Source of the DNA: Bradyrhizobium ottawaense
GTDB taxonomy: Bacteria; Pseudomonadota; Alphaproteobacteria; Rhizobiales; Xanthobacteraceae
Assembly (NCBI RefSeq): GCF_002278135.3
Contig: NZ_CP029425.2
Coordinates: 2,828,001-2,892,000 of the forward strand
DNA: 64,000 nt
Reading direction: 5' to 3'
In this document: positions 968 to 17,133 of the stretch, piece after piece
How the letters are laid out: each line of letters opens with the position of its first letter
How positions within the stretch are numbered: position 1 is the stretch's first letter
The notes under the pieces: model-generated
Told to the model about the DNA's origin: nothing
The model's database searches: none
Seen by the model: the letters and a program-made list of their open reading frames with translations, nothing else
Made by a program: the position numbers and the translations under genes

Positions 968-1956
968 TTGCGGTCGAGCACGGGTGGGCGAGCCAGGTCG
1001 AAGTGGCGGAGCAGATCCACCATGGCCTGAAGCCGTTTTACGCGATAGGCGTCAACGTCCATACCCGAATAGTCGAGGAAGCCGGCACCCGTGCGCAAGC
1101 CGATCCTGCCTTCATGCATGTTGCGTGAGATGACGTCCGGCGCGCGGTAGCGGTCGCTGCCGAGCGCGCCTTCGAGATAGCGACTGGCGTAGTACAAGAT
1201 ATCGCCGCCACCCCAGTCGATGAACTCGAGCAGTCCGAGCACGGCGTAGCGGAACCCAAAACCGTAGCGGATCGCCTTGTCGATCTCCTCGGCACTGGCC
1301 ACGCCTTCCTCGACCATGCGTGCGGCCTCGTTCATCGCCAGCGCCTGGATGCGCGGAACGATGAAGCCGGGCGTCGCCGCGCAGACGACCGGGACCTTGC
1401 CGATGCCTTCGAGCAGTCCCTTGACCTCGTCGACGATGGCGGGGTCGGTGGCTCTGCCGGGCGAAACCTCGACCAGCGGGATCAGGTAGGCTGGGTTGAG
1501 CCAATGCACGTTGAGGAAGCGGCGAGGATTCACGATCGCGCCGGAAAGATCATCGACCAGGATGGTCGACGTCGTCGATGCCATGATCGTGTCGGGTCGG
1601 ACCTGCCGTGAGGCTGACCCAAGCACCTCGCGCTTGAGCTCGACGACCTCTGGAACCCCTTCGAAAACCATTCCGGCCTCGGATAGCGCTGCCCCGCTCT
1701 GGCTGGCGGGCACCACCGAGACGCGCGCGATGAGCGGATCGACATCGGCCTCCGTCAGCAGCCCCAGCTTGGACAGGCTGGCAAAGGTCTTCGTGACCTC
1801 GCCGAGCGCGTCGGCCTCAAGCTTGGCGAAGTCTTCTGCGCTACGGGCCTTGACGTCGATCATTGTGACCTGATGGCCAGCGTAGGCAAACGCGACCGCG
1901 ATGCCGCGTCCCATGCGGCCCGCCCCCAGACAGACGATATTGGCGCGATTGGTCAT
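964..1956 (-). CDS. 3-hydroxyacyl-CoA dehydrogenase, NAD-binding
   Basis: Predicted to oxidise a 3-hydroxyacyl-CoA to the 3-ketoacyl-CoA with NAD+, in the cytoplasm. The 330-residue protein starts with a Rossmann segment carrying GAGRMG at residues 11-16 and has a C-terminal 3HCDH domain from about residue 190 containing FGFRYAVLG and a terminal GAGFLDYSG-type segment. Length fits stand-alone members of the family. It is the last gene of a leftward operon led by the hydrolase at 6691, and its ATG lies 3 bases after the stop of the preceding gene. In context it would perform the beta-oxidation-like step on the CoA intermediate (inference). Confidence 0.85.
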   Translation of the reverse strand: MTNRANIVCLGAGRMGRGIAVAFAYAGHQVTMIDVKARSAEDFAKLEADALGEVTKTFASLSKLGLLTEADVDPLIARVSVVPASQSGAALSEAGMVFEGVPEVVELKREVLGSASRQVRPDTIMASTTSTILVDDLSGAIVNPRRFLNVHWLNPAYLIPLVEVSPGRATDPAIVDEVKGLLEGIGKVPVVCAATPGFIVPRIQALAMNEAARMVEEGVASAEEIDKAIRYGFGFRYAVLGLLEFIDWGGGDILYYASRYLEGALGSDRYRAPDVISRNMHEGRIGLRTGAGFLDYSGMDVDAYRVKRLQAMVDLLRHFDLARPPVLDRN

Positions 1957-1959
1957 CGG

Positions 1960-3048
1960 TCAAAATCCATTGCGAAGCAGCGTCTGCAATTCAGCCTTGC
2001 TGAGATTGTCGAGCCCCAGCGTCTCGAGCGTTCGGCCACCTTGCGCAAAATCCTCGCCGCAGACCGCGCCGCCGATTGACAGGAACGCTTTGGCCAGCGG
2101 CGTGGCCACGCCCGCCAGGCCTGCGACGGAGACCAGCAGCGACAGCCCAAGCCGCAGGTCCTCGCGCATATAGCGATGCTCCGTCAGCACGATCCGCTCG
2201 CGCCAGTCCCCTGAATCCGTCAGCCGGTCGTGCGAGCCGCGGCCATACATCCAGATCTCGCCCTCTTTCGCATAGTGATGAGCGAGCGGGAAATGCGGTG
2301 CACCGTAACCAAGCGCCTCGCGCACCGCGATGCGTTCCGCGTCGAGCGCGTCGGTCACCCGCCGAATCGCGGCTTGTGTGCCTTCCTTATGGATGTCCCA
2401 GCGCTCGAAATGTTCGATTGGACCGGCATTCATCACGATCAGCGGCGGATGGATGATGGGTCCTGCATTCATCAGCGCCCCGGACAGCGCGTCTCCGCAC
2501 GGCTCGATCGTATCGGGGAAAGCGCGTCCGATGACTTCGAGCGCATGCGGTGCCCGTTCGAGCGGGAACACGCCGACTGGAAGCCGCTTGGCGCGGATGG
2601 TGATCGCGACCTCGAACGGTCCGTGCTTGCGGGTGAGCCACGGCAGTGTACCGGTTTCGGCAAAGCTTGCCCTGGCCTGGTTCCCAGCTTCCCGCGCAGC
2701 CTCTGCGAAGATCATCGAGCCGAATGTCGCCGGCGGCAAGAATACGACCTGACCGTCCCGCAGATGCGGGGCGAGCAGGCGAGCGATATCAGTCTGTGCG
2801 AAGGCAGGAGCGGGGCACAGGATCAGCTCCGTGCCGTTGACGGCCTCGGCGATATCCGTCGTGACCAGCGCGAGCGTCACGTCGTGGCGGCCGTTGTGAT
2901 CCTTGACCAGGATGCGCGAGCCGGCGGCGCGATGTGCCGCGACCTGACCGGCATCGCGGCGCCAGAGCCGCACCTCATGCCCCGACAGCGCAAAATCGCC
3001 GGCGGCCGCGAAGGAGCCGTTTCCCCCACCGAGAACTGCAATCTTCAA
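1960..3048 (-). CDS. NAD/NADP octopine/nopaline (opine) dehydrogenase family protein
   Basis: The 362-residue protein has an N-terminal dinucleotide fold, with GGGNGS at residues 7-12 and GHEVRLW shortly after, and a C-terminal helical domain with an EHRYMREDLRLG segment, as in the octopine dehydrogenase family. Known members reductively condense an amino acid with a 2-oxo acid or act on related imines. The start overlaps the stop of the upstream synthetase gene by 4 bases, so the two are probably translationally coupled. Its real substrate is unknown. An opine-type enzyme in an aromatic amino-acid operon could act on an imine or amino intermediate, but that is inference. Confidence 0.75.
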   Translation of the reverse strand: MKIAVLGGGNGSFAAAGDFALSGHEVRLWRRDAGQVAAHRAAGSRILVKDHNGRHDVTLALVTTDIAEAVNGTELILCPAPAFAQTDIARLLAPHLRDGQVVFLPPATFGSMIFAEAAREAGNQARASFAETGTLPWLTRKHGPFEVAITIRAKRLPVGVFPLERAPHALEVIGRAFPDTIEPCGDALSGALMNAGPIIHPPLIVMNAGPIEHFERWDIHKEGTQAAIRRVTDALDAERIAVREALGYGAPHFPLAHHYAKEGEIWMYGRGSHDRLTDSGDWRERIVLTEHRYMREDLRLGLSLLVSVAGLAGVATPLAKAFLSIGGAVCGEDFAQGGRTLETLGLDNLSKAELQTLLRNGF

Positions 3049-4571
3049 GATGCTTCTCCTTGCGCGCGGGACTGCGCATCAAGCTGCTTCAGCAGGAAAT
3101 GCTGGACCTTCCCCAGTGCGGTGCGCGGCAGGTCGGCGACGAAGACGATATCGCGTGGCACCTTGTAGCGGGCGAGTTGCGCCTGGAGATGGGCTCTCAG
3201 CTCGTTCGCTTCGGGCCGGCAGCCGGATCGGGGGATGACATAAGCGATCGGCACCTCGTCCCAGCGCGGGTCCGGCCGGCCGATCACGGCGCATTCGCTG
3301 ACATCGGGATGTTCGAGCAGGACGCGCTCGACCTCGGCCGGGTAGACGTTCTCTCCCCCCGAAATGATCATGTTCTTCTTGCGGTCGCGGACCCAGAAAT
3401 AGCCGTCGGCGTCGCACAGGCCGATGTCGCCGGTGCGATACCAGCCGTCGTGCAATGCGTCGCGCGTTGCCGCCTCGTTGCCCCAATATTCGAAGAACAC
3501 ATTGGGTCCGCGTACCGCGATCTCGCCCGGCGTGCCTGCCGGCACCTCGTTGCCGGAATGATCGACCACCTTCGCTTCGCAGCACAGGCCGGCAAGTCCG
3601 GTCGATCCCGCACGCGAGAGGTCGCCGCCAAGCCGCGTGTAGACGGCGATCGGGCAGGTTTCCGTCGAGCCGTAGACCTGAAGCACCGGCACATCGCGGG
3701 CGACGAAACGCTCGATCAGATGGGGAGGCACGATGGTCGAGCCGGTGGCGACGGCTTTGAGTGACGAAAGATCGGTGGCGGCCCAGGCGGGATGCTCGCT
3801 CACCGCCTGGATGATCGCAGGCACCATGACCGTGAGTGTCGGCCGCTCCTGTTCGATGGCCGCAAGCGCGGTCTCCGGCGCGAAGCGTGCATGGACCGTG
3901 ACGGTCGCGCCGAGCTGCAGAGCCGGCGTGGTCTGGATGTTGAGGCCGCCGACGTGGAAGAACGGCAGCACGGTCAGCACATGATCGTCGGACGTCATGT
4001 TGTGCATGTGCTGGCTCATGACGCCGTTCCAGAACAGCGCCTCCTGGCGCAGCACCGCGCCTTTCGGCCGCCCGGTTGTCCCCGATGTGTAGACGATAAG
4101 CAGGGGGCAGGAGAGATCGGTGTGCGGATTTCGGCCGGCGCCGTCGCTGCGCGCGAGCAGGCTTTCGAATGTCGTGCCGCGAGGTGGCGTGAAGTCGAGG
4201 CCGACAACGGACGTCCCCGGCGCAAGCTCGGGGAGAACTCCCTCGAAGGCCCGCTCGAGCACCAGCACCTTGGCGCTCGCATCGGCGAGAATGAAGAGTT
4301 GCTCGGCGACCGCCAGCCGCCAGTTCAGCGGCACGAGCATCGCACCCAGCCGCGCGCAGGCGTAGAGCAGAATAAGATAGTCGGGTCGGTTCAGGCTGAG
4401 GATAGCGACGCGGTCGCCGCGGCCGACGCCGAGCTCCTGTTTCAATGCCGTCGCGGTGCGTTCGATGCGCGCGGCGAACGCCGCATAGCTCAGCCGTTCC
4501 CCTTCGAAGGCAATGGCTGTCTTGTCTGGCGCGAACGCCGCGTTGCGATCGATCAGACTGCAGAGGTCCAC
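3045..4571 (-). CDS. AMP-forming acyl-CoA synthetase
   Basis: A 508-residue ANL-superfamily ligase that would activate a carboxylic acid to its CoA thioester with ATP. Visible motifs are YTSGTTGRPKG (phosphate loop, about residue 160), YGSTE in the middle, GWYRTGDIG, and the C-terminal PRTALGKVQ whose Lys is the usual adenylation residue. It begins with GTG, 2 bases after the stop of the acyl-CoA dehydrogenase gene, and overlaps the next gene by 4 bases. It is a medium- or long-chain-like ligase, different from the aryl-CoA ligase at 14962, so the cluster contains two ligases. Substrate not determined. Confidence 0.85.
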   Translation of the reverse strand: MDLCSLIDRNAAFAPDKTAIAFEGERLSYAAFAARIERTATALKQELGVGRGDRVAILSLNRPDYLILLYACARLGAMLVPLNWRLAVAEQLFILADASAKVLVLERAFEGVLPELAPGTSVVGLDFTPPRGTTFESLLARSDGAGRNPHTDLSCPLLIVYTSGTTGRPKGAVLRQEALFWNGVMSQHMHNMTSDDHVLTVLPFFHVGGLNIQTTPALQLGATVTVHARFAPETALAAIEQERPTLTVMVPAIIQAVSEHPAWAATDLSSLKAVATGSTIVPPHLIERFVARDVPVLQVYGSTETCPIAVYTRLGGDLSRAGSTGLAGLCCEAKVVDHSGNEVPAGTPGEIAVRGPNVFFEYWGNEAATRDALHDGWYRTGDIGLCDADGYFWVRDRKKNMIISGGENVYPAEVERVLLEHPDVSECAVIGRPDPRWDEVPIAYVIPRSGCRPEANELRAHLQAQLARYKVPRDIVFVADLPRTALGKVQHFLLKQLDAQSRAQGEAS

Positions 4572-4573
4572 CG

Positions 4574-5863
4574 TCAGTCGTCCGTCTCGCCGGTCTCATA
4601 CAGCGCCTCGCGTCCGATCCGGTCGAGGCAGAGCTCGGCGGTCCAGGGCAGCATCAGCGAGCCGCAGCGGCTGTCGCGGTAGATCCGTTCCAGCGGCAGC
4701 GAGCGAAGCATGGCCTGACCGCCGCAGGTGCGGATCGCGAGCGCGGCAAGCTCATTGGCGCCTTCCATCACCGAATATTGCGCGGCATAGGCCCGCAACA
4801 CCTGCTCCTTGCTCGGATTGGCGCAGGCTTCGGTGACGGCCTGGAACCAGATCGCCTTGACCTGCTCGAGCTTGATCTGCATCTGCGCGACCGCGATCTG
4901 CTTGGTCGGATACATCCGGCGCTTGACCGGCGGCATGCCCGGCACTTCGCCGCGCAGATAACGCACGGTGAAATCATAGGCCGCTTGGGCCAGGCCCATA
5001 TAGGTCGGCGACAACGTGAGGAACATGTGAGGCCAGCGCATCGCGGCCTGGAAATAGACGCCGCGCGGCATCAGTGCAGAGTCGGCCGGCACGAACACGT
5101 CCTTGAACAGGAGCGTCCGCGAAACCGTTCCGCGCATGCCGAGCGGGTCCCAGTCACCGACGACAGAGACGCCTTCCGATTTGGCGGAGATCGCGAGGTA
5201 AAGCGTGTTGCGGCGCGAGGCCTTCTCGCCTTCCTCGATCTCAGTGCAGAGCACGCCGTAATAGTCGGCATGGCCGGAGAGCGATGCAAAAATCTTCTTG
5301 CCGTTGACGATCCAGCCGCCCTCGACCGGCCTTGCTTCCGTGCCGAAGGCGACGCCGCCTGCGGCGGCCGCTCCACCCTCGGAGAAGGGTTGCGAATAGA
5401 TCGCACCATCCTCGACGATGCGCTTGTAGTGGACTGCGCGACGCCGCTCGTGCTCGGCCCGGGTCCCGGCGTCCATGTCGAGATCGTCGGCGAGGGGCCC
5501 CGACCAGAGGGTCGAGCACACGTGCATGTTCCAGGTCAGCGCGGTCGCGCCGCAATAGCGGCCGATCTCGGCGGCCGCCAAAGCATAGGTCTGGTAGTTC
5601 GCGCCGAGCCCACCGTGTTTCTTGGGAACGGCAATGCCGAGCAGACCGACGCGGTGCAGGTCGCGATAATTCTCGATCGGAAAGGTCGCCTCGCGATCGT
5701 AGGTGGCGGCGCGAGCGGCGAACACGCTCTGACCGATCTCTCTTGCCCGCGTAACGATGCCAGCCTGCTCGTCGCTGAGGCGGAATGCAACGGGATCGAA
5801 GATCGGCGCATCCAGCGCCACCTTGTCAGTCGTGCCGATCGTCTTGCTGACTTGCATGGTCAT
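4574..5863 (-). CDS. Acyl-CoA dehydrogenase family flavoprotein
   Basis: A 429-residue protein with the acyl-CoA dehydrogenase fold: N-terminal helical domain with GLLGIAVPKKHGG, a middle beta domain with SGHADYY and DPLGMRGTVSRT, and a C-terminal helical bundle. Where many family members have the Tyr-Glu-Gly-Thr segment that supplies the catalytic base, this protein reads RDSRCGSLMLPWTAE, so the usual Glu does not seem to be present; the base may lie elsewhere, or the protein may be a monooxygenase-like relative. It is the second gene of the leftward operon, starting 12 bases after the hydrolase stop. A second in-frame ATG lies two codons in. Confidence 0.8.
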   Translation of the reverse strand: MTMQVSKTIGTTDKVALDAPIFDPVAFRLSDEQAGIVTRAREIGQSVFAARAATYDREATFPIENYRDLHRVGLLGIAVPKKHGGLGANYQTYALAAAEIGRYCGATALTWNMHVCSTLWSGPLADDLDMDAGTRAEHERRRAVHYKRIVEDGAIYSQPFSEGGAAAAGGVAFGTEARPVEGGWIVNGKKIFASLSGHADYYGVLCTEIEEGEKASRRNTLYLAISAKSEGVSVVGDWDPLGMRGTVSRTLLFKDVFVPADSALMPRGVYFQAAMRWPHMFLTLSPTYMGLAQAAYDFTVRYLRGEVPGMPPVKRRMYPTKQIAVAQMQIKLEQVKAIWFQAVTEACANPSKEQVLRAYAAQYSVMEGANELAALAIRTCGGQAMLRSLPLERIYRDSRCGSLMLPWTAELCLDRIGREALYETGETDD

Positions 5864-5875
5864 TGCGCGGTCACC

Positions 5876-6691
5876 TTACGCTTTGGTCGCGAGAGAGTTC
5901 AGGAACCGGCCGAGGGCCTCGTCAAAGGCCTCGGGGCGCTCGAGGTTGGCGAGATGGCCGACGCCAGCGAGCTCGACATATTCAGCACCAGGGATGTAGT
6001 TCGCAGTCTTTGCCATCATCGGCGCGGGCGCATTGTTGTCCTTGGAACCCGACAGCAGCAGCGTTGGGACGGAAATATTCGCAAGCGTGCTGCGCTGGTC
6101 GAAGCCGATGAGAGCCAGCATCATGGCACGATAGCTTGCCTCGGGCACGCTCCCCATGCATTCGCGTGCAAGCACCATTCCGTTCGGATCGGGATCGTCC
6201 CCGACAAGCTCCTTCACCAGCGAGGGCGCCAGCGACTTCATCGTCTCTCCGCGATCGAGCGGCCCGAGCCGCGCCGCGATGAACGATTTCTGCCAGTCGC
6301 CGTCGGCCTTGCCGAAGGCCGGGCTGGTCTGCGCCAGTACGACCGCGCGCGCCAGCTTTGGCGATTGCACCAGCCATTTCTGCACGATCATGCCGCCAAT
6401 CGAGTGACCGACCAGAATGGGTCTGGTTGCATCGAGTTGCTCAATGAACTGCTGGAGCGCCTCCGCCAGGGTAGCAATGCTGACGCTGGCGAGCGGTGCC
6501 GATCTGCCGTAACCCGGCATATCCCATGCGATCGCGCGGAAGCGGCCGCCGAACGTGGCAAGTTGCCGCCGCCAGGCCCGCGCTGCGCCGCCGATGCCAT
6601 GAAGGAAGATCAGAGGTATCGCATCCGGATCGCCCGCGGCTTCGTAGGCGAAGCGTCCGTCCTTTGTTATCATTGGCGCAGGCTGCGACAC
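5876..6691 (-). CDS. Alpha/beta hydrolase, first gene of leftward operon
   Basis: A 271-residue alpha/beta hydrolase with oxyanion segment FLHGIGG, nucleophile elbow GHSIGG, an acidic position in SGSKDNNAP and the catalytic His in VGHLANLE. I chose the GTG at 6691-6689 because AAAGGA stands six bases before it; the frame stays open further upstream but without a ribosome site. Family members hydrolyse esters, thioesters or C-C bonds of ring-cleavage products. It leads the operon running down to base 964, and an operator-like palindrome (6751-6765) lies 59 bases upstream. It probably hydrolyses a CoA thioester or ring-fission product (inference). Confidence 0.8.
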   Translation of the reverse strand: MSQPAPMITKDGRFAYEAAGDPDAIPLIFLHGIGGAARAWRRQLATFGGRFRAIAWDMPGYGRSAPLASVSIATLAEALQQFIEQLDATRPILVGHSIGGMIVQKWLVQSPKLARAVVLAQTSPAFGKADGDWQKSFIAARLGPLDRGETMKSLAPSLVKELVGDDPDPNGMVLARECMGSVPEASYRAMMLALIGFDQRSTLANISVPTLLLSGSKDNNAPAPMMAKTANYIPGAEYVELAGVGHLANLERPEAFDEALGRFLNSLATKA

Positions 6692-6750: not shown

Positions 6751-6765
6751 ATTTTATACTTAAAG
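6751..6765. promoter_or_regulatory. Candidate MarR operator, site A
   Basis: ATTTTATACTTAAAG. Read on the minus strand it is CTTTAAGTATAAAAT, close to the cluster consensus ATTTTAAGCCTAAAAT. It lies 59 bases upstream of the leftward hydrolase operon, in the 196-base gap shared with the divergent SDR gene. Confidence 0.5.
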
Positions 6766-6831
6766 CAATTTTCGGGCCGCCCTCTCGTGCCCCGACGTTC
6801 GCGGCCGCGAGGCGCCGCTTTCGTTGCAAAA

Positions 6832-6847
6832 ATTTGAAGGTTAAAAT
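6832..6847. promoter_or_regulatory. Candidate MarR operator, site B
   Basis: ATTTGAAGGTTAAAAT, three differences from the cluster consensus, 40 bases before the SDR start at 6888. With site A it would serve the divergent promoter pair. Confidence 0.55.
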
Positions 6848-6887
6848 ATATCGGAGGAACGATCATCGGATCCGAGGGAGCCAGCGC

Positions 6888-7649
6888 ATGTCCGGATTGC
6901 CGCACTCGCCGCACGCACTGGTGACCGGTGGTGGCCGCGGCATCGGCCGTGCGATCGCGGCGGCCCTCGTCGGCGCCGGCGCCACTGTGACGATAGTCGG
7001 TCGGAACTCCGCGGTCCTCGAAGAGGCGGTCAATGCAGGCGCCGCGCATTTTGCGGCCGTCGCCGATGTTTCGGACGAAGCGTCGTTGAAGGCCGCCATT
7101 AGCGAGGCCAGCGCGCGAAAGCCGATCGATATCCTGATCGCCAATGCGGGCGGCGCCGAATCCGCACCATTCGTGAAATCGGACAGTGCCCTGTTTGCGC
7201 GCATGATGGACATCAATTTCATGGGCGTCGTCCATGCCATTCACGGCGTGCTGCCGGGCATGAAGGATCGCCCGTTTGGCCGCATCGTCGTGATTGCGTC
7301 GACCGCGGGGCTCAAGGGCTATGCCTATGTCAGCGCATACACTGCGGCCAAGCACGCCGCGGTCGGTCTCGTTCGTTCGCTTGCGCTCGAGCTGGCCGGT
7401 AGCAATGTGACCGTGAATGCGGTTTGCCCGGGCTTCACCGACACCGACCTCGTAGCCGGCAGCATCGAGAACATCATGACCAAGACGGGACGAAGCCGCG
7501 AGCAGGCGATCGCCGAACTCGCCAAGCACAATCCGCAAGGGCGCCTGATCGCGCCTCGGGAAGTGGCAGACGCGGTTCTCTGGTTGTGTGGCGAGGGCGC
7601 CGGCGCGATCACCGGGCAGGCGATTGCCGTGGCCGGGGGCGAGGTCTAG
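6888..7649 (+). CDS. SDR family NAD(P)-dependent oxidoreductase
   Basis: A 253-residue classical short-chain dehydrogenase. It has the cofactor motif TGGGRGIG near the N-terminus, NAGG, a catalytic Ser in IASTAG and the YTAAK active site. The ATG at 6888 is preceded by GAGGGAG at a 7-base gap. It is the first gene of the rightward operon that continues with the crotonase and the monooxygenase/reductase fusion. In this setting it would oxidise or reduce an alicyclic hydroxy/oxo-acyl-CoA, but the substrate is inferred only from neighbours. Confidence 0.85.
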
Positions 7650-7692
7650 CGTGAATGCCGCAGGCGCGGAACGAACACACCAAGGAGATCGC

Positions 7693-8529
7693 ATGAGCAG
7701 ACCAGCAAATCCCGTCACCATTCCGCTCGCGGACTATTCGCCGCAGCACTTCGTGCTGGCGGTGGTCGACGGCGTCGCGACGGTCACGCTCAACCGGCCC
7801 GAACGAAAGAATCCGCTGACGTTCGAAAGCTACCGGGAACTGACCGATTTCTTCCGCGCTTGCGCCTTCGACGACGAGGTCAAATCCATCGTAGTCACCG
7901 GCGCGGGCGGCAATTTCTCGTCCGGTGGTGACGTGTTCGAGATCATCGGCCCGCTGGTGAAGATGGACACCAAGGGGCTGACGGCCTTCACGCGGATGAC
8001 CGGCGACCTCGTCAAGGCGATGCGGGCCTGCCCGCAGCCGATCATAGCCGCGGTCGAGGGAATCTGTGCCGGGGCCGGTGCGATCGTCGCCATGGCATCG
8101 GACATGCGCCTCGCGGCAAGCGGGACCAAGGTTGCTTTCCTGTTCAACAAGGTGGGCCTTGCCGGTTGCGACATGGGCGCCTGCGCGATCCTGCCGCGGA
8201 TCATCGGGCAGTCCCGCGCCTCCGAACTGCTCTACACCGGCCGGTTCATGACCGCGGAGGAGGGCGAGCGCTGGGGCTTCTTCAGCCGCATCGTGACGCC
8301 GGTGCAGGTGCTGCCCCAGGCGCAGGTCCTGGCCAAGCAGATCGCGGAAGGGCCGACCTTCGCCAACACCATGACCAAGCGAATGCTGGCGATGGAATGG
8401 GCAATGTCGGTGGAGGAGGCGATCGAGGCGGAAGCCGTTGCCCAGGCCCTGTGCATGACCACAGCCGATTTCGAGCGCGCCTTCGAGGCCTTCGCCAACA
8501 AGGTCAAGCCGGTATTCAGGGGCGACTAA
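7693..8529 (+). CDS. Enoyl-CoA hydratase/isomerase (crotonase) family protein lacking the usual Glu pair
   Basis: A 278-residue crotonase-fold protein, start fixed by AAGGAGA seven bases before ATG 7693. The oxyanion-hole region reads [13 protein letters not shown] and the second active-site segment [15 protein letters not shown]. By eye alignment to rat enoyl-CoA hydratase, the two catalytic Glu residues (144 and 164) correspond to Ile and Lys here, while an Asp appears in GCDMGA. It is therefore unlikely to be a simple hydratase; ring-opening hydrolases and dehalogenases of the same fold use other residues. It lies directly upstream of the aryl-CoA monooxygenase/reductase gene and may act on its product (inference). 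Confidence 0.8.
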
Positions 8530-8577
8530 ACGGCGTCTCTGTCCGAGCCGGCCAGCAAGGGGGACTTGCGCGAAATT

Positions 8578-8593
8578 ATTTTAGGCTTAAAAT
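8578..8593. promoter_or_regulatory. Candidate MarR operator, site C
   Basis: ATTTTAGGCTTAAAAT; its reverse complement is exactly the cluster consensus ATTTTAAGCCTAAAAT. It lies 33 bases before the start of the monooxygenase/reductase gene, which suggests that gene also has its own promoter. Confidence 0.65.
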
Positions 8594-8626
8594 AGTTTCA
8601 TGGCCGGGTGAATTGGCGAGGCTCCC

Positions 8627-10978
8627 ATGAAAGTCGCGATCATCGGTGGCGGACCTGCGGGTCTCTACGCTGCGATCCTGCTCAAGAAGCAGCGCCCGGG
8701 CGCCGACATCACGGTGTATGAGCGCAATCGGGCCGACGACACCTTCGGCTTCGGCGTGGTCTTCTCCGATGCCACGCTGGACAATTTCGAAAAACACGAT
8801 CTGCCGAGCTACCGCCGCATCACCCAGGAGTTCGCATACTGGGACGACATCGCCGTGCATTTCCGCGGCACGGTCCACCGGGTCGGCGGTAACGGCTTTT
8901 GCGGCTGCTCCCGAAGCAAGCTGCTCCTGATCCTTCAGGAACGGGCCCGCGAGCTTGGCGTCGTCCTGCACTTCGAGGTGGACATCGACGACGAAACCCG
9001 GTTCGCCGACGCCGATCTCGTCCTGATCGCCGACGGCATCAACAGCCGCTTCCGCGAGAAATACATCGATCATTTCCAGCCGGAGGTCGACCTCCGCTCC
9101 AACAAGTTCGCCTGGATGGGCTCGACCAAGCCGCTCGATGCCTTCACCTTCATCTTCCAGGAGACCGAGTGGGGGCCGTTCATCGCCCACGCCTATCAAT
9201 ATGAGGCCGGACACTCGACCTGGATCTTCGAGACCGATCCCGAGACGTTCGAGCGGGCTGGCCTCACGGGGCTGGACGAGACGCAGTCCGCCGCGCGGAT
9301 GGCCGAGATTTTTGGCTGGTTCCTCGATGGACACAAGCTGCTCATCAACCGTTCGATGTGGCGCAATTTCCCGATGATCCGCAGCAAGCGCTGGGTCAAG
9401 GACAACATGGTGCTGCTCGGCGATGCCAAGGCGAGCGCGCATTTTTCGATCGGCTCCGGTACCAAGCTCGCGATGGAAGACGCGATTGCGCTGGCCGAGG
9501 CGATGGAGAAAGCTCCCAGCATCGAGGCGACGCTTGATGTCTACGAGCAGGGCCGCCGTGAGGAGGTCGAGAAGACGCAGCATGCCGCCGACGTCTCGCT
9601 GGTCTGGTTCGAGCATGTCGACCGCTTCTGGGATTTTGATCCCGTGCAGTTTGCCTTCGGCGTGATGACGCGCTCGAAGGCGATCACCTATGACAATCTC
9701 AAGCTCCGGGCGCCCGATTTCGTGGCCGAAGTCGAGAAGTCATTTGCCAGACAGGTTCGCGACAGCGGCTTTGACGTCGACACCAAAAAGCCGGCGGTGC
9801 CGTTGTTCCAGCCGTTCCGGCTGCGCGAGATGGAGATCGCCAATCGCGCGGTGATGTCGCCGATGTGCATGTACTCGGCCAAGGAGGGCGTGCCGACCGA
9901 CTTCCACCTCGTGCACTACGGATCGCGTGCGATCGGTGGCGCCGGCCTGATCTTCACGGAGATGACCTGCGTCAGCCGCGACGCCCGGATCACGCCGGGC
10001 TGCACCGGCCTGTGGAACGACGAGCAGGAGGCGGCGTGGCGGCGCATCGTGGACTTCGTCCACGGCAATTCGGCCGCAAAGATCTGCCTCCAGTTGGGCC
10101 ACGCCGGCCGCAAGGGCGCGACCAAGCTGATGTGGGACGGCATGGATCGCCCGCTGGACGAAGGCGGCTGGGACGTGTTCTCCGCATCGCCGCTCCCCTA
10201 TTTTCCCGACAGTCAGGTGCCGCGCGAGCTCGATCGCGCCGGCATGAACGCGGTGAGGGACGCTTTCGTTGCGTCGGCTGAGCGCGGCGAGCGCTGCGGC
10301 TTCGACATGCTGGAGCTGCATTGTGCCCACGGCTATCTGCTCGCCAGCTTCATCTCGCCGCTGACGAACACCAGGACGGACGAATACGGCGGCTCGCTCG
10401 ACAACCGTCTGCGCTTCCCGCGCGAGATCTTCGAGGCGCTCCGCGCGGTCTGGCCGTCGCACAAGCCGATGTCGGTACGCATCTCCGCGACTGACTGGGC
10501 CGATGGAGGCATCACCGGCGACGACGCGGTGGCGGTTGCGCGCGCTTTCGCCGAAGCCGGCGTCGATCTGGTCGATGTCTCGACCGGGCAGACCGTCCGC
10601 GATGCGCAGCCGATCTACGGCCGCATGTTCCAGACGCCGTTCTCGGATCAGGTCCGCAACGAGGCGCGCGTCGCCACGATGTGCGTCGGCAACATCACGA
10701 CGGCGGACCAGGCCAATACCATCCTGGCCGCTGGAAGGGCGGATCTCGTCGCGCTTGGCCGGCCGCATCTGGTCGATCCGTTCTTCACCATGAGGGCGGC
10801 GGCCTGGTACGGGGCAAAGGACGCGTTCTGCCCGCCGCAATATCTGCCCGGAATGGATCAGATTTTCCGCAACAGCGTCCGCGACCGGCAGGATCTGGAG
10901 GAGCTGCGCATTAAGGCTAAGCCCAAGACCCGGGCCGAGCTCAAGGCGGAGACGACAAAGCCGCTTGCGGCGGAGTAA
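8627..10978 (+). CDS. Bifunctional aryl-CoA monooxygenase/reductase (2-aminobenzoyl-CoA monooxygenase/reductase or salicylyl-CoA 5-hydroxylase family)
   Basis: A 783-residue fusion. Residues 1 to about 375 form a class A FAD monooxygenase, with GGGPAG at 7-12 and the GD motif ending at Asp266. From about residue 391 to the end is an old-yellow-enzyme domain, with SPMCMYS, GHAGRK (His492) and HCAHGYL (His565, His568, Tyr570). In the known 2-aminobenzoyl-CoA enzyme the first half hydroxylates the ring at C5 with O2 and the second half reduces it, so aromaticity is lost without ring cleavage. The same architecture is also annotated as salicylyl-CoA 5-hydroxylase/oxidoreductase. The ligase, RidA and amino-compound genes nearby favour an aminobenzoyl substrate (inference). 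Confidence 0.85.
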
Positions 10979-11033
10979 CCGCCCGTGCGACGTTAACCTC
11001 ATTGCCTGGCATGTTTCGAGTGGAGTAAGGGCG

Positions 11034-12284
11034 ATGAAGGCGATTATCGTCGGTGGCGGTATCGGTGGCCTCACCACGGCGCTGATGCTGCGTTCTCGTG
11101 GCATCGGATGCGAGATTTTCGAGCAAGCCGACACCATTCGTGAGCTCGGCGTCGGCATCAATACGCTGCCGCATGCCATGCGCGAGCTCGCCGGACTCGG
11201 CCTGCTTCAGAAACTCGACGATGTCGCTGTTCGCACCGACCAGCTCTATTATCTCAACCGCCATGGCCAGGAGGTCTGGCGCGAAGCCCGCGGCATCGAC
11301 GCCGGTCACGACGTGCCGCAATTCTCGATCCATCGCGGCCGCCTTCAAGGCGTCATCCATCGCGCCGTCGAGGAGCGGCTCGGGCACGAGGCGATCCACA
11401 CCGGCTGCAGGCTCGGCGCTTTCACGCAGGACGAGGGCGGCGTCACCGCTTACTTTTTCGATCGTGCCGGCGCGCATGTCCACACGGCGCGCGGCGATAT
11501 CCTGATCGGCGCCGACGGCATTCATTCCCGCGTCCGAGAGACGTTGTTCCCGAACGAGGGACCGCCGTGCTGGAACGGCCTGATGCTGTGGCGCGGTGCG
11601 CGCGACTGGCCGCTGTTCCTCACCGGCAAATCGATGATCGTGGCCGGCGGCCTCAATGCCAAGGTGGTGATCTATCCGATCGCGGAGGGATCGAGCCCGG
11701 CGAGCCGCCTGACCAACTGGGCCGTGCTGGTGAAGGTGGGCGAGGGCAATGCGCCACCACCGCGGAAGGAAGACTGGTCGCGGCCGGGCCGCCGCGAGGA
11801 GCTGATGCCGCACGTCGCCCGCTTCTCGGTGCCCTATGTCGACGTGAAGAGCCTGATCTCGGCGACGCCCGAATTCTACGAATATCCGACCTGCGACCGC
11901 GATCCCTTGCCCTATTGGTCGTCGGGACGCGTCACGCTACTCGGCGACGCCGCGCACCCCATGTATCCGGTCGGCTCGAATGGCGCCTCGCAGGCGATCC
12001 TCGACGCGCGTTGCCTTGCCGACGCGCTGGTGCGCGCCGAGCATCCGCGCCAGGCGCTACTCGAATACGAGAAGAAGCGCCTGCCGATGACGGCGGATAT
12101 CGTGCGCTCCAATCGCCGGGGCGGCCCCGAGGGCGTCATCGACGCCGTCGAGCAGCTCGCGCCCGACGGCTTCGACAATGTCGACAACGTCCTGAGCTAT
12201 TCCCAGCGCGAGGCCATCGTGCGCGGCTATGCGACCAAGGCGGGCTTCGCCGCAGTGCCGGGGCTCGCGGCGGTGCGCGCCTAA
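11034..12284 (+). CDS. Flavin-dependent monooxygenase (salicylate hydroxylase/PhzS-like)
   Basis: A 416-residue class A flavoprotein monooxygenase. It has GGGIGG at residues 7-12, a GADGIHSRVR segment and the second FAD motif GDAAHPMYP near residue 305. It follows the monooxygenase/reductase fusion by 55 bases and is probably in the same transcript; a GGAG lies upstream of the ATG. Family members hydroxylate aromatic acids, including decarboxylative hydroxylation. It might act on a side product or a free aromatic acid feeding the pathway. The substrate cannot be read from sequence. Confidence 0.8.
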   Translation: MKAIIVGGGIGGLTTALMLRSRGIGCEIFEQADTIRELGVGINTLPHAMRELAGLGLLQKLDDVAVRTDQLYYLNRHGQEVWREARGIDAGHDVPQFSIHRGRLQGVIHRAVEERLGHEAIHTGCRLGAFTQDEGGVTAYFFDRAGAHVHTARGDILIGADGIHSRVRETLFPNEGPPCWNGLMLWRGARDWPLFLTGKSMIVAGGLNAKVVIYPIAEGSSPASRLTNWAVLVKVGEGNAPPPRKEDWSRPGRREELMPHVARFSVPYVDVKSLISATPEFYEYPTCDRDPLPYWSSGRVTLLGDAAHPMYPVGSNGASQAILDARCLADALVRAEHPRQALLEYEKKRLPMTADIVRSNRRGGPEGVIDAVEQLAPDGFDNVDNVLSYSQREAIVRGYATKAGFAAVPGLAAVRA

Positions 12285-12296
12285 GACTCGCGGCTA

Positions 12297-12393
12297 GAGC
12301 ATGATCCGGAAAAGTGCGAGGCGGTTTTCCGAAAGGATCATGCTCAAACAATAATCTAAAGCGCGATGACGGTTCATCGTGATCTCATCGCGC
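12297..12393. repeat. Tandem palindromic intergenic repeat between convergent genes
   Basis: Two hairpins in a row. The first has perfect 11-base arms GAGCATGATCC (12297-12307) and GGATCATGCTC (12335-12345), with inner GGAAAA/TTTTCC pairing. The second has 9-base arms GCGCGATGA (12361-12369) and TCATCGCGC (12385-12393). I recall this pair as a common intergenic repeat in Bradyrhizobium. It separates two convergent genes and may end transcription both ways. Confidence 0.75.
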
Positions 12394-12394
12394 C

Positions 12395-12850
12395 TTAGCC
12401 ACCGGGAGGCGGCGGCAGGAAGTGGATGTTGAACTCGGCCGCCATCGCCACCACGTCCTCCGGCTTCTGTTCCTTCATGTTGTGAAGGCCCCAGAACAGG
12501 TCGAACAGCCTTTTGGTCGGAGACACCCAGAACAGCACCTTTGCGGTCTGCTCCGACTTGTTGAAGATGCCGTGCGGCACGCCCATGCCGAGGCGGATCA
12601 GGTCGCCGGCGGTGGCCTGCGACTCCGAATTGCCGAGCATGAAATCGAGCTTGCCCTCAAGCATGTAGAGATATTCGTCCTGGTCGGGGTGAATGTGCGG
12701 CGGCACGAACGTGCCCGGCGGCAAGGTCGCATGCCAGGAGAAGCTGTGCTCGGTCTTGCTCTTCGGCACGTAGGTTTGACCGAGGATGTTCCAGGAAATA
12801 CCCTGGATCCCCTCATTGGCGCGCGTGATGCCGGTGATTTCGCTGCTCAT
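12395..12850 (-). CDS. Small cupin-domain protein
   Basis: A 151-residue single cupin. The metal-site motif reads PPHIHPDQDEYLYMLEG around residues 50-66 and the second motif GDLIRLGMGVPHGIFN near residues 85-100, so the His and Glu ligands are present. The start at 12850 follows GGGAGGA by six bases; an open frame runs further upstream into the next gene but has no ribosome site. Cupins of this type are dioxygenases, isomerases or binding proteins. It is transcribed leftwards after the binding-protein gene, 28 bases away, so probably in the same transcript. Role unknown. Confidence 0.75.
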   Translation of the reverse strand: MSSEITGITRANEGIQGISWNILGQTYVPKSKTEHSFSWHATLPPGTFVPPHIHPDQDEYLYMLEGKLDFMLGNSESQATAGDLIRLGMGVPHGIFNKSEQTAKVLFWVSPTKRLFDLFWGLHNMKEQKPEDVVAMAAEFNIHFLPPPPGG

Positions 12851-12878
12851 TGAAGTCCTCCCGTAACCCGTCGCGGCT

Positions 12879-14054
12879 TCAGTTCGCCGCCTTACAGTCC
12901 TTGGCGTAGCGGTCGCCGTAATTCTCGAAGACCTTCTGCACGATCTCCGTCTGGAACTTGCCGTCCGGACGCTTGGCAACCTTGGTCAGATAGAAATCCT
13001 GGATCGGATAGCCGTTGGTGTTGAACTTGAAGGTGCCGCGCAGCGAGGTGAAGTCGGCTTTCTTCAGCGCGGCCTGGACCGCGTCCTTGTTCGACAGATC
13101 GCCCTTCACGGCCTTGACCGCGCTGTCGATCAGCATCGCGGCGTCATACGCCTGGAAGGCGTAGGTGCCAGGCACGACGTTATAGGCGGCCTCGTAGGAC
13201 GCGACGAACTTCTTGTTCGGGGGATTGTCCAGATTGGGCGCCCAGTTGGCGCCGCCAAACATGCCGACAGCGGCGTCCTGCTGTGCCGGCAAGGTCGATT
13301 CATCCACCGTGAACGCCGAGAGCACCGGAATGCTGTCAGCAAGGCCCGCCTGCCGGTATTGCTTGACGAGATTGACGCCGAGGCCGCCCGGCATGAACGT
13401 GAACAGGGCATCGGGCTTCTGCGAGGAGATCTTGGAAAGCTCCGGCTGGAAGTCCAGCGTGTTCAGCGGCATGTAGGATTCCTCGACGATCTCGCCCTTG
13501 TAGTCGAGCTTGAACCCCGCCACCGAATCCTTGCCGGCCTGATAGTTCGGGACCATCAGGTACATGCGCTTGTAGCCGCGATCCTGCGCGACCTTGCCGA
13601 GGATCTCGTGCACCTGATCGTTCTGGTACGAGGTCACATAGAAGAACGGGTTGCAGTCCTTGCCGGCAAAGGTCGACGGGCCCGCGTTGGGGCTGATCAG
13701 GAAGGTCTTCGACTCCGTCACGGGCCGGTGGATCGCCTGCAGGATGTTGGAGAAGATCGGGCCGATCACGAAGTCGACCTTGTCGCGTTCGAGCAGACCC
13801 TTGACCTTGGTCACCGCCGCGTCCGGCTTCAGTTCGTCATCGACCACCACGACCTCGACGTCACGGCCGCCCATCTTGCTGCCGAGGTCCTTTACGGCGA
13901 GCGCAAAGCCGTCGCGAACTTGCTGGCCAAGCGCTGCGGCTGGTCCCGACAGAGTCACGATCACCCCGAGCTTGATCTTCTCCTGGGCGAGGGCAGGGGT
14001 CATTGCGGTGCCGACCAGCAGGGCAGTTGCGGCCAAGGTCAATTGCGTCTTCAT
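12879..14054 (-). CDS. ABC transporter substrate-binding protein (LivK/aromatic-binding type), orphan
   Basis: A 391-residue periplasmic binding protein with a clear signal peptide ending near ALAQ at residues 21-24, followed by KIKLGVIVTLSGPAA, the usual start of branched-chain-amino-acid-type binding proteins. Related proteins in Rhodopseudomonas bind benzoate, coumarate and other aromatics. No permease or ATPase gene is present in this part of the window, so those parts must lie elsewhere or be shared. It is divergent from the MarR gene, with two operator-like palindromes in the gap. Its ligand is probably the aromatic acid degraded here (inference). Confidence 0.85.
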   Translation of the reverse strand: MKTQLTLAATALLVGTAMTPALAQEKIKLGVIVTLSGPAAALGQQVRDGFALAVKDLGSKMGGRDVEVVVVDDELKPDAAVTKVKGLLERDKVDFVIGPIFSNILQAIHRPVTESKTFLISPNAGPSTFAGKDCNPFFYVTSYQNDQVHEILGKVAQDRGYKRMYLMVPNYQAGKDSVAGFKLDYKGEIVEESYMPLNTLDFQPELSKISSQKPDALFTFMPGGLGVNLVKQYRQAGLADSIPVLSAFTVDESTLPAQQDAAVGMFGGANWAPNLDNPPNKKFVASYEAAYNVVPGTYAFQAYDAAMLIDSAVKAVKGDLSNKDAVQAALKKADFTSLRGTFKFNTNGYPIQDFYLTKVAKRPDGKFQTEIVQKVFENYGDRYAKDCKAAN

Positions 14055-14196
14055 GATCTGTCCCCCGTGACATCAGGGCTTGCGCTGCAAGCCACGTACT
14101 TTAATCCAAGCTTATGCCGATGATGGTGGCCGCGGCAAGGAGCGCTCAAAGTGTCGCCATCCCGCGGCAGCGGCGCATGCAAGCGGCGCGCCAATT

Positions 14197-14212
14197 ATTT
14201 GAAGCCTAAAGA
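14197..14212. promoter_or_regulatory. Candidate MarR operator, site D
   Basis: ATTTGAAGCCTAAAGA, 142 bases upstream of the leftward binding-protein gene and 81 bases upstream of the MarR gene. Three differences from ATTTTAAGCCTAAAAT. Confidence 0.55.
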
Positions 14213-14265
14213 AAGTCGCGTGCGGTCGATTGTTGCAGCTTTGGACTTGCGGCCGGCGTCGATTT

Positions 14266-14281
14266 ATTTGAAGCTCAAAAT
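14266..14281. promoter_or_regulatory. Candidate MarR operator, site E
   Basis: ATTTGAAGCTCAAAAT, 12 bases before the MarR start codon and 69 bases from site D. Its position suggests autoregulation. Confidence 0.6.
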
Positions 14282-14293
14282 GTTGGGGAATCC

Positions 14294-14824
14294 GTGCCGG
14301 CGCCAATGCCCGCCGAGAGTGAACGCACCGAGATGCTCGATTCCGAGACCAAGGCCGTCGAAACGCCGGAGGACCATGCCGACGAGCTTCGGCTGTGGCT
14401 GCGCCTTCTGACCTGCACCACCCTGATCGAGGGCGAGGTTCGCGGCCGGCTGCGGCAGCGGTTCGACGTCACGCTGCCCCGCTTCGATCTGATGGCTCAG
14501 CTCGACAAGGCGCCTGACGGCATGACGCTATCCGATGTCTCCAAGCGGATGATGGTATCCAACGGCAATGTCACCGGCCTCGTCGAGCGCCTCGTGGAAT
14601 CCGGCCATCTCGATCGTCGGACCTCGGAGACGGACCGCCGTGTCCAGGTGATCCGCCTCACGAAACTCGGTCGCGCCGAGTTCCGCAAGATGGCTGCGGA
14701 GCACGAGACCTGGATCGCCGATCTCTTCGCCGACCTCTCGCCGAAGGATGTGCGCGAGTTAATGCGGCTGCTTGCCAAGACCAAGGCGTCGGCGCAGAAA
14801 TCGGCCGCGCGCCGCCGGCCGTAA
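14294..14824 (+). CDS. MarR family transcriptional regulator
   Basis: A 176-residue winged-helix protein. The DNA-binding region reads LSDVSKRMMVSNGNVTGLVERLVESGHLDRR followed by the wing TDRRVQVIRLTKLG, typical of MarR. The GTG at 14294 is preceded by GGGGA; ATG codons at 14306 and 14333 are alternatives. MarR proteins usually repress and are released by aromatic acids or their CoA thioesters. The palindrome at sites A-F, two of them directly upstream of this gene, is its likely target, making it the regulator of the surrounding catabolic operons (inference). Confidence 0.85.
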   Translation: MPAPMPAESERTEMLDSETKAVETPEDHADELRLWLRLLTCTTLIEGEVRGRLRQRFDVTLPRFDLMAQLDKAPDGMTLSDVSKRMMVSNGNVTGLVERLVESGHLDRRTSETDRRVQVIRLTKLGRAEFRKMAAEHETWIADLFADLSPKDVRELMRLLAKTKASAQKSAARRRP

Positions 14825-14895
14825 GAACCGCCGCCCAACCCCTTTTGCCGCAGGAAAAAGCACGGGTCGCCCAAAATCCGCTATTGCGCCGAATT

Positions 14896-14911
14896 GTTTT
14901 AAGCCTAAAAT
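14896..14911. promoter_or_regulatory. Candidate MarR operator, site F
   Basis: GTTTTAAGCCTAAAAT, one base from the palindromic consensus, 50 bases before the CoA ligase start. Confidence 0.65.
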
Positions 14912-14961: not shown

Positions 14962-16653
14962 ATGGCCAACGCCGCCAAGATTCAAGTGTCGGGCTCGCAT
15001 GACGGCAACGCTGCGACGGCCCATGTCGATACGTTTGCGCGGCAGCATCTGCCGCCACGCGAGCTCTGGCCCGAGTTTATCTTCACACGGCCGGAGCTGC
15101 GCTATCCGCCGCGATTGAACTGCGTCAGTTATTTCCTCGATCGCTGGGTCGAGCAGGGACATGGCGAGGCGCCCTGCGTCATCAGTCCCGCCGTCAGTTA
15201 CACCTATCGCGAGCTGCAAGCGCTGGTGAACCGCATCGCCAACGTGCTGGTCGGCAAGCTTGGTCTCGTTCCCGGCGGACGCGTGCTGCTACGCTCCGCC
15301 AACAATCCGATGATGGTCGCGACCTATCTCGCGGTCATCAAGGCCGGCGGCATTGTCGTGGCCACGATGCCGCTCTTGCGCGCCAAGGAGCTGTCATATC
15401 CGATCCAGAAGGCGGAGATCACGCTGGCGCTGTGCGACGGAAAGCTCGCCGAGGAAATGGAGAAGGCGAAAGCTGCGGCGCCGAATCTCAAGCGAGTCGT
15501 TTATTGGGGCAATGGCGCGACGGACTCGCTCGAAGCGCTCAGCGCGGACGCGAGTCCGGAGTTCAAGGCCATCGATACCGCCTCCGACGACGTCTGTCTG
15601 ATCGCCTTTACGTCCGGCACGACAGGCGATCCCAAGGGCACCATGCATTTCCACCGCGACATGCTCGCGGTCTGCGACGGCTATGCGCGCAACATCCTGC
15701 GAGCCGAACAGAAGGATCGCTTCGTCGGCTCGGCGCCGCTCGCGTTCACCTTCGGCTTCGGCGGTGTGCTGTTTCCGATGCATATCGGCGCCTCTTTCGT
15801 GGTGCTGGAGAAGACGACGCCGGACGATATCCTGACGGCGATCGAGCAATACAAGACCACGGTCTGCTTCACGGCGCCGACCGCTTACCGGGCGATGATC
15901 GGCAAGCTGGCTGGCCGCGACATCTCCTCGCTTCGCAAATGTGTTTCCGCGGGCGAGACGCTGCCCAAGCCGACCTTCGACGCCTGGCTCAAGGCGACGG
16001 GGATCAAGCTGATGGACGGCATCGGCTCGACTGAATTGCTGCACATCTTCATCAGCGCGACCGAGGACGAAATCCGTCCCGGCGCAACGGGCAAGCCCGT
16101 GCCGGGCTATGAGGCCAAGATCGTCGACGATGACGGCCATGATTTGCCGCCGGGCACGATGGGGAACCTCGCGGTGCGCGGGCCGACCGGATGCCGCTAT
16201 CTCGCCGACGAGCGGCAGCGCAAATACGTCAGGAACGGCTGGAACATCACCGGCGACACCTACCTGATGGATAATGACGGCTATTTCTGGTACCAGTCGC
16301 GCTCCGACGACATGATCGTGTCGGCCGGCTACAATATCGCGGGCACGGATGTCGAGGCGGCGCTGCTCACGCATCCGGCGGTCGCCGAGTGCGGCGTGGT
16401 CGGCGCCCCCGACGAGGCGCGCGGCATGATCGTGAAGGCCTATGTCGTCGCGACGCCCGGCGTGACGCCGGACGCTCAGCTCGTGACCGAGTTGCAGGAA
16501 CATGTCAAACGCGAGATCGCGCCGTACAAATATCCGCGTGCCATCGAATTCGTGAAGCAACTACCCAAGACCGAGACCGGAAAATTGAAGCGCTTTGCCT
16601 TGCGGCAACTGGCGCAGGCCGCGGCAACGTCCTCAGGCGTCGCGGCGGAATGA
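14962..16653 (+). CDS. 2-aminobenzoate-CoA ligase/benzoate-CoA ligase family protein
   Basis: A 563-residue AMP-forming aryl-CoA ligase. Visible motifs are TSGTTGDPKG at residues 217-226, GIGSTE in the middle, GWNITGDTY, and the C-terminal KTETGKLKR with the catalytic Lys at 541. The long N-terminal part with FARQHLPPRELWPE matches benzoate- and 2-aminobenzoate-CoA ligases rather than fatty-acid ligases. The start follows GAAAGGAG. It would make 2-aminobenzoyl-CoA (or benzoyl/salicylyl-CoA), the substrate of the fusion enzyme at 8627. The RidA gene follows by 15 bases. Confidence 0.85.
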   Translation: MANAAKIQVSGSHDGNAATAHVDTFARQHLPPRELWPEFIFTRPELRYPPRLNCVSYFLDRWVEQGHGEAPCVISPAVSYTYRELQALVNRIANVLVGKLGLVPGGRVLLRSANNPMMVATYLAVIKAGGIVVATMPLLRAKELSYPIQKAEITLALCDGKLAEEMEKAKAAAPNLKRVVYWGNGATDSLEALSADASPEFKAIDTASDDVCLIAFTSGTTGDPKGTMHFHRDMLAVCDGYARNILRAEQKDRFVGSAPLAFTFGFGGVLFPMHIGASFVVLEKTTPDDILTAIEQYKTTVCFTAPTAYRAMIGKLAGRDISSLRKCVSAGETLPKPTFDAWLKATGIKLMDGIGSTELLHIFISATEDEIRPGATGKPVPGYEAKIVDDDGHDLPPGTMGNLAVRGPTGCRYLADERQRKYVRNGWNITGDTYLMDNDGYFWYQSRSDDMIVSAGYNIAGTDVEAALLTHPAVAECGVVGAPDEARGMIVKAYVVATPGVTPDAQLVTELQEHVKREIAPYKYPRAIEFVKQLPKTETGKLKRFALRQLAQAAATSSGVAAE

Positions 16654-16668
16654 GAGAGGGATGAAGAA

Positions 16669-17133
16669 TTGTCTGTGACGACGCCGAAAGGCCCGCAGCT
16701 CGCGGTGCTGCCGACAGCAGCCGAGGATGACGCCCGTTCGCGGGTGCAGGTGCTCCAGCCGTCGGGGTGGCCGATGCCGAAGGGCTATGCCAATGGCATG
16801 GCCGCTGAGGGCCTCATCGTCGTCACCGGCGGGGTGATCGGCTGGGATGCCGAAGAGCGTCTTGCCGACGGCTTTGTCGCGCAGGTGGGGCAGACCTTGA
16901 GCAACATCGCCGCGATCCTGGCTGAGGCAGGCGCGAGGCCCGAGCACCTCGTGCGGCTGACTTGGTACGTCGTCGACATGGACGAGTACCTGTCCAACCT
17001 GAAGGAGCTCGGTAAGATCTACCGTGCCATCTTCGGCGCAAATTACCCGGCGATGGCGCTGGTGCAGGTGGTGCGCCTCGTGGAGAAGGCGGCGCGCGTC
17101 GAGATCGAGGCCACCGCCGTCATTCCGCGCTGA
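16669..17133 (+). CDS. RidA/YjgF family enamine/imine deaminase
   Basis: A 154-residue RidA-type protein. The family hydrolyses reactive enamines and imines to ketones with release of ammonia, usually as trimers. The C-terminal motif ARVEIEATAVIP retains the Arg (143) and Glu (147) needed in active members. I chose TTG at 16669, about eight bases after GAGAGGG; GTG at 16675 is the alternative. It directly follows the ligase gene and is probably cotranscribed. Dearomatised 2-aminobenzoyl-CoA would be an enamine, so a dedicated deaminase is chemically plausible (inference). Confidence 0.85.
   Translation: MSVTTPKGPQLAVLPTAAEDDARSRVQVLQPSGWPMPKGYANGMAAEGLIVVTGGVIGWDAEERLADGFVAQVGQTLSNIAAILAEAGARPEHLVRLTWYVVDMDEYLSNLKELGKIYRAIFGANYPAMALVQVVRLVEKAARVEIEATAVIPR

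Follow-up and report, generated by a model that had tools for sequence, protein, structure and literature searches.

In a 64,000-nucleotide stretch of the Bradyrhizobium ottawaense genome (contig NZ_CP029425.2, positions 2,828,001 to 2,892,000; hereafter the window), six 16-bp palindromic boxes lie in four intergenic regions of a gene cluster that includes a gene for a MarR-family regulator. We consider it probable that the boxes are operators of this MarR protein, which would act as a repressor of the cluster and of a distant operon with tryptophan dioxygenase and kynureninase genes and would be released by an anthranilate-derived metabolite. Judged from sequence, the boxes are almost certainly functional operators, and it is very likely that this MarR binds them. 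The finding is solid and its reach is wider than it appeared at first, extending to a distant operon, conservation across the bacterial class and enzyme swaps, while in kind it is ordinary.

Six boxes around a MarR gene

The original prediction had listed six palindromes in four promoter regions and no other copy in the window. Each string was indeed found once, at 6751, 6832, 8578, 14197, 14266 and 14896; site A had been placed correctly as a 15-mer and is given here as a 16-mer. The boxes and the regulator are as follows.

Box A, 6751..6766, ATTTTATACTTAAAGC, 59 nt upstream of the hydrolase start (GTG 6691)
Box B, 6832..6847, ATTTGAAGGTTAAAAT, 40 nt upstream of the SDR start (6888)
Box C, 8578..8593, ATTTTAGGCTTAAAAT, 33 nt upstream of the ABM start (8627)
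Box D, 14197..14212, ATTTGAAGCCTAAAGA, 142 nt upstream of the binding-protein start (14054, - strand)
Box E, 14266..14281, ATTTGAAGCTCAAAAT, 12 nt upstream of the marR GTG (14294)
Box F, 14896..14911, GTTTTAAGCCTAAAAT, 50 nt upstream of the ligase start (14962)
MarR regulator, 14294..14824, + strand, PF12802 at 46.7 bits (cut-off 27) and PF01047 at 39 bits (cut-off 24.6)

The hydrolase start behind the distance of box A was picked by eye (frame from GTG 6691), and marR has alternative starts at later ATG codons, 14306 or 14333. Boxes D and E had been described as flanking marR; both in fact sit between marR and the divergent binding-protein gene, and it is E and F that flank marR.

A symmetrised matrix built from the six boxes scored them at 21.3-29.5 bits, and no other place in the 64-kb window exceeded 11.6, in agreement with the predicted absence of further copies. 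The top matrix score in 30 Markov-simulated windows was 14.4 bits, and the leave-one-out scores of the six boxes ran from 16.7 (A) to 28.2 bits (C). Genome-wide (a single contig of 8,589,152 bp), RTTTKARGSYYAAARW occurs with zero mismatches at B, C, D, E and F only; four unrelated places were added when one mismatch was allowed, and the reversed control gave nine. The core TTTAAGCTTAAA was found with at most one mismatch at exactly three places in 8.59 Mb, namely C, F and a site upstream of a kynureninase operon, and the reversed core at ten. The consensus of the 16-bp box, computed from 116 distinct sites in the relatives described below (loci L120-L199 and L204-L233), is ATTTTAAGCTTAAAAT with an A-rich flank. 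On the genome, window-simulation, permuted-matrix and reversed-core controls, we rejected the explanation that the boxes are chance AT-rich palindromes. It is also very improbable that their conservation serves RNA polymerase, as AT-rich promoter elements, and that they are not operators: they do lie within conserved promoter blocks, but permuted matrices of equal composition miss them, and the genome has fewer places with the specific core than with its reversed control (3 vs 10). Plain promoter conservation was rejected on the permuted-matrix control.

Conservation of the boxes and of the regulator

For close relatives we used the best 80 of 498 confirmed relatives, fetched via MarR and nearly all from Bradyrhizobium. 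Gene order was mostly kept in these 80 loci, the exceptions being a solo MarR in L041 and rearrangements in L087 and L088. Their 1.53 Mb held 415 boxes scoring at least 14 bits, two of which (14.8 and 14.9 bits) lay past the cluster's last visible gene, the others being assigned to cluster-gene promoter regions. Counted in loci where the script saw the gene pair adjacent, the region between the hydrolase and SDR genes had two boxes in 57 of 61 loci and one in the other four, that between the hydratase and ABM genes one box in 56 of 57, that between the binding-protein gene and marR two boxes in 67 of 77 (one in 7, none in 3), and that between marR and the ligase gene one box in 62 of 62. Box F was kept in all of the 16 close loci with a ligase version less than 65% identical. 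Most boxes fell within the best conserved blocks of their intergenic regions, with conservation ranks of 4/84 for C, 5/124 for F, 8/111 for both A and B, 16/238 for D and 46/238 for E. Two side observations belong here. At L041:10001-10507, in Bradyrhizobium sp. Ghvi, a second MarR copy (95% identical) has no cluster but carries a box (20.5 bits) upstream; in L087, L088 and L138, close to the MarR locus, there is a rearranged ABM-SDR-ECH-RidA cluster (46-61% identical) that has a strong box (26.8-28.9 bits) to itself.

Shared ancestry accounts for part of the conservation among close loci, and distant loci were therefore needed. At 1e-10, 153 of 296 family genomes had a MarR match, as had 52 of 289 class genomes at 1e-20. 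The distant set comprised 75 loci from L120-L199, without L193, under a MarR identity limit of 75%, its members being 40-72% identical; a frequent order is SDR-marR-hydratase-ligase-RidA, divergent from ABM. With the window's matrix at 20 bits or more, these loci had 79 boxes in 63.9 kb upstream of cluster genes vs 11 in 1,268 kb elsewhere. An upstream box was present in 53 of the 75 loci at 20 bits and in 60 at 18 bits, and 60 matrices with permuted half-site columns reached a mean of 0.5 loci vs 53 for the real matrix. Outside the class (L204-L219, tallied by eye), a box of at least 15 bits stood just upstream of ABM in 10 of 16 loci and one of at least 19 bits in 6 of 16; some of these genomes are AT-richer, so that weak matches there mean less. 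The conservation in close and distant relatives supports well the predicted control, by MarR, of at least four transcripts, those starting with the hydrolase, SDR, binding-protein and ligase genes. The four stand as candidate targets, and the list was incomplete, as it lacked ABM with its own operator (C) and marR with site E.

The recognition segment of MarR is near-invariant: all 77 nonredundant proteins have V84 and T90, and 76 of the 77 have G87 and N88, a pattern that joint conservation of protein and box would produce. The nearest solved structure, PDB 3boq (79 bits), is a MarR-family regulator without a functional name. It shares the recognition segment VTNGNVSGL but has I where the MarR family described here has W136, and it may be a relative.

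A distant kynureninase operon and the exchange of ABM

A matrix scan of window and genome had been proposed with the original prediction; the window held no further copy, but the genome did. A consensus search with up to three mismatches returned seven places, three of them outside the cluster and the others B, C, E and F, and the reversed control returned two. At C1:4735586, 1.9 Mb from the cluster, CTTTTAAGCTTAAAGC lies 45 nt upstream of the longest open frame of an operon encoding an alpha/beta hydrolase, tryptophan 2,3-dioxygenase and kynureninase, the latter two above curated cut-offs; the box is farther from the ATG conserved among relatives than from the longest-frame start. The sole perfect TTTAAGCTTAAA copy in the 8.59-Mb genome is the one upstream of this operon. 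The best model for the hydrolase is a hormone-sensitive-lipase family, and we infer that the protein is a formamidase. The regulon had been called local, and on the box at C1:4735586 we rejected a purely local regulon. Two further places within three mismatches of the consensus, C1:707377, with no gene-like frame listed beside it, and C1:961992 (L235:2993), flanked by the end of a P450 gene on one side and an integrase-type gene on the other, were treated as chance and not as targets, as neither had a clear target gene and the reversed control also gave two places; C1:961992 may also be a relic.

The box before the kynurenine genes recurs in relatives. The dioxygenase was present at 1e-40 in 16 of the 198 genomes sampled from the family, and a box was present at 8 of 8 loci with the order hydrolase-dioxygenase-kynureninase and at 3 of 3 with kynureninase-dioxygenase (11/16 overall), and at none of the five dioxygenase loci without kynureninase in view. 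Among 30 named Bradyrhizobium genomes, which were reached via named loci and may overlap the 198-genome sample, 25 of the 26 with the dioxygenase have the box, the exception being L308, with another gene order. Eight aligned loci show divergence upstream of the kynureninase box, the box itself and the bases just downstream being near-constant. In L247 and L248 the kynurenine genes adjoin cluster-type ligase and RidA genes. Within the class, MarR was found in 31 of 45 dioxygenase genomes vs 52 of 289 overall (Fisher 2e-17, without kinship correction). As the box is shared by the cluster and the tryptophan-to-anthranilate genes, the whole route, most likely tryptophan > anthranilate > 2-aminobenzoyl-CoA, is probably under one regulator. 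In Bradyrhizobium and its close kin the predicted operator link to the kynurenine genes is firm; it does not hold generally.

The monooxygenase/reductase ABM has itself been exchanged within the genus. It was lost in ten Bradyrhizobium loci (L023, L025, L043, L047, L053, L055, L056, L064, L066 and L078), where the hydratase is separated from the next gene by 144-477 bp vs 2,506 in L010. Boxes A, B, D, E and F were all retained in these loci at 14 bits or more; box C was strong in L066 and L078, degenerate in L025 (15.2 bits) and not found in the remaining seven. A second version, ABM2 (49-52% identical to ABM), was located elsewhere in 10 of 10 ABM-less genomes vs 1 of 11 genomes with ABM, in a search that covered 21 of 22 genomes, all but L026. 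In all 11 loci with ABM2, its neighbour is a second MarR, MarR2 (45-53% identical), and a box of 26.1-28.9 bits separates the two. These loci (L223-L233) represent the ten ABM-less strains and one strain with both versions; L223 has the contig coordinates of G897 and was on that ground assigned to strain L047. In a 58-locus tree, seven parsimony changes were needed to explain the loss of ABM (shuffled labels: mean 9.4, minimum 6), and L052, with both versions, was sister to L066, which has lost ABM and kept box C. The simplest reading is that ABM2 was gained first and ABM then lost, several times. The swap amounts to a natural experiment in the operator-mediated recruitment of a replacement enzyme to an existing regulon. 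We give an even chance to the broader view that the breakdown of tryptophan and that of anthranilate are joined by an old operator code in much of Alphaproteobacteria and to some extent outside it, the regulator/box pair being fixed and the enzymes swapped; MarR and MarR2 would then share one operator set.

Regulation, ligand and comparison with known systems

Several points weigh against the reading of the boxes as operators of this MarR. A and D are weak palindromes, with 4 of 8 arm positions mismatched. Upstream boxes were missing from 22 of the 75 distant loci at 20 bits and from 15 at 18 bits, and one permuted-matrix run reached 22 loci, the maximum. At L213 and L217 a box stands at ABM, but no adjoining MarR was seen. 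Of the 29 dioxygenase loci at class level, only four (L256, L270, L275 and L276) had a box of 15 bits or more in their short flanks, and L275 alone has it directly before the dioxygenase. With the window's matrix, C1:961992, a place without a clear target gene, scores 21.9 vs 21.3 for the kynureninase box. A consensus sigma-70 scan gave one hit, and that not at a box. The support, finally, consists of sites, statistics, conservation and profile annotation, from which binding, repression and ligand are deduced. The loci L213 and L217, both outside the class, and the distance of 142 nt between D and its gene would also fit the boxes being bound by another regulator, or MarR acting as an activator or in a dual role. 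We regard this as unlikely, for box and MarR co-occur in 53 of 75 distant loci with the recognition segment constant, and B, C, E and F stand 12-50 nt upstream of starts, as expected of repressor sites.

The genes that MarR would control, and their neighbours, were annotated as follows.

HYD, alpha/beta hydrolase, first gene of the left operon, 5876..6691, - strand, PF00561 and PF12697
Remainder of the left operon, 964..5863, - strand, four genes after HYD:
acyl-CoA dehydrogenase, 4574-5863, - strand
AMP-binding ligase, 3045-4571, - strand
octopine-dehydrogenase-like protein, 1960-3048, - strand
3-hydroxyacyl-CoA dehydrogenase, 964-1956, - strand
SDR-type oxidoreductase, 6888..7649, + strand, top NCBIfam matches under cut-off
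ECH, enoyl-CoA hydratase family protein, 7693..8529, + strand, NF006107 at 466.1 bits (cut-off 330)
ABM, fused flavin monooxygenase and old-yellow-enzyme-type reductase, 8627..10978, + strand, NF006101 at 1131.3 bits (cut-off 1078)
FMO, FAD monooxygenase, 3' of ABM, 11034..12284, + strand, PF01494; NF005720 at 576.9 bits (cut-off 400)
SBP, periplasmic binding protein, 12879..14054, - strand, PF13458 at 259.1 bits
LIG1, benzoate-CoA-ligase-family ligase, 14962..16653, + strand, TIGR02262 at 386.9 bits (cut-off 375.25)
RIDA, RidA-type protein, 16669..17133, + strand, PF01042 at 71.8 bits; NCBIfam match under cut-off

FMO (11034-12284) and a cupin protein (12395-12979) lie within the conserved cluster, neither with its own box, and the octopine/nopaline-dehydrogenase-like protein (1960-3048) is encoded mid-way in a beta-oxidation-type operon. 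An aryl-CoA ligase and a fused monooxygenase/reductase are thus co-clustered, both above curated cut-offs (TIGR02262 and NF006101), LIG1 being a probable 2-aminobenzoate-CoA ligase and ABM a probable 2-aminobenzoyl-CoA monooxygenase/reductase. The model NF006101 bears the name salicylyl-CoA 5-hydroxylase/oxidoreductase, and the substrate of ABM therefore calls for independent evidence. The name would fit a pathway that acts on salicylyl-CoA instead of 2-aminobenzoyl-CoA. This is improbable in view of the RidA-type gene after the ligase, the operator shared with the dioxygenase/kynureninase operon and the co-occurrence of MarR and dioxygenase in the class (31/45 vs 52/289 overall, with no kinship correction).

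We propose that a MarR dimer would bind the 16-bp palindrome (consensus ATTTTAAGCTTAAAAT, core TTTAAGCTTAAA) in front of the hydrolase, SDR, ABM, binding-protein, marR and ligase transcripts and of the distant hydrolase/tryptophan dioxygenase/kynureninase operon. Bound MarR would keep these transcripts low by occlusion and would regulate its own gene through site E. The motif TTGCGC stands 6 nt upstream of the box at both C and F, where, judged by eye, a promoter with the box over the spacer and -10 region is plausible, although the sigma-70 scan did not bear it out. On the arrival of tryptophan or anthranilate, 2-aminobenzoyl-CoA made by LIG1 would most likely release MarR, and the route tryptophan > kynurenine > anthranilate > 2-aminobenzoyl-CoA > beta-oxidation would be expressed. 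We moderately favour 2-aminobenzoyl-CoA as the ligand because CoA-ester enzymes are the most constant neighbours of MarR. The same neighbours, indirectly, make free anthranilate or kynurenine the less likely ligand of an otherwise identical regulon, a choice that would agree with the box shared by the kynureninase operon, kynurenine and anthranilate being intermediates of the route that this operon encodes.

The analysis provides a precise operator and target list for a regulator family without a described function in the literature searched, and in Bradyrhizobium it would join tryptophan catabolism and the 2-aminobenzoyl-CoA route under one switch. Anthranilate is reportedly also a possible product of auxin degradation in Bradyrhizobium, as Jensen is said to have noted in 1995. 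An anthranilate biosensor could be built from the regulator and its box. A search of the open-access literature, with subscription journals largely outside it, found, among the papers listed, no account of this regulator, its box or the tie to kynurenine genes.

MarR repressors with palindromic operators are a known kind in aromatic catabolism, and CouR-type MarR repressors answer to aryl-CoA thioesters. The logic proposed here, of a repressor that would be released by the CoA ester of the substrate, is like that of the CouR type; the comparison with CouR concerns this logic. KynR of Pseudomonas is of the Lrp/AsnC type, whereas the present regulator matches MarR models and has no Lrp/AsnC family in its Pfam matches. 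KynR is named as a kynurenine-responsive regulator in PMC12164975. Like KynR, our regulator is proposed to act over tryptophan-to-anthranilate genes; unlike it, it belongs to the MarR family and its control would be common to the lower pathway too. The aerobic degradation of 2-aminobenzoate in Azoarcus evansii, as outlined in the consulted sections of a review (PMC4539516), proceeds through a ligase, a monooxygenase/reductase and beta-oxidation, and the cluster described here likewise has a ligase, a fused monooxygenase/reductase and beta-oxidation-type enzymes. Those sections name no regulator for the pathway, whereas we propose a MarR with its operators, tied to kynureninase genes. Nearest in spirit among the systems described are MarR_73/IadR of Variovorax, MarR regulators of auxin-degradation loci with indole-3-acetate as ligand (PMC9613470). 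There a MarR repressor of an aromatic pathway has an operator by its own gene, as is proposed here; the genes and the ligand differ, and the boxes described here extend over seven promoter regions.

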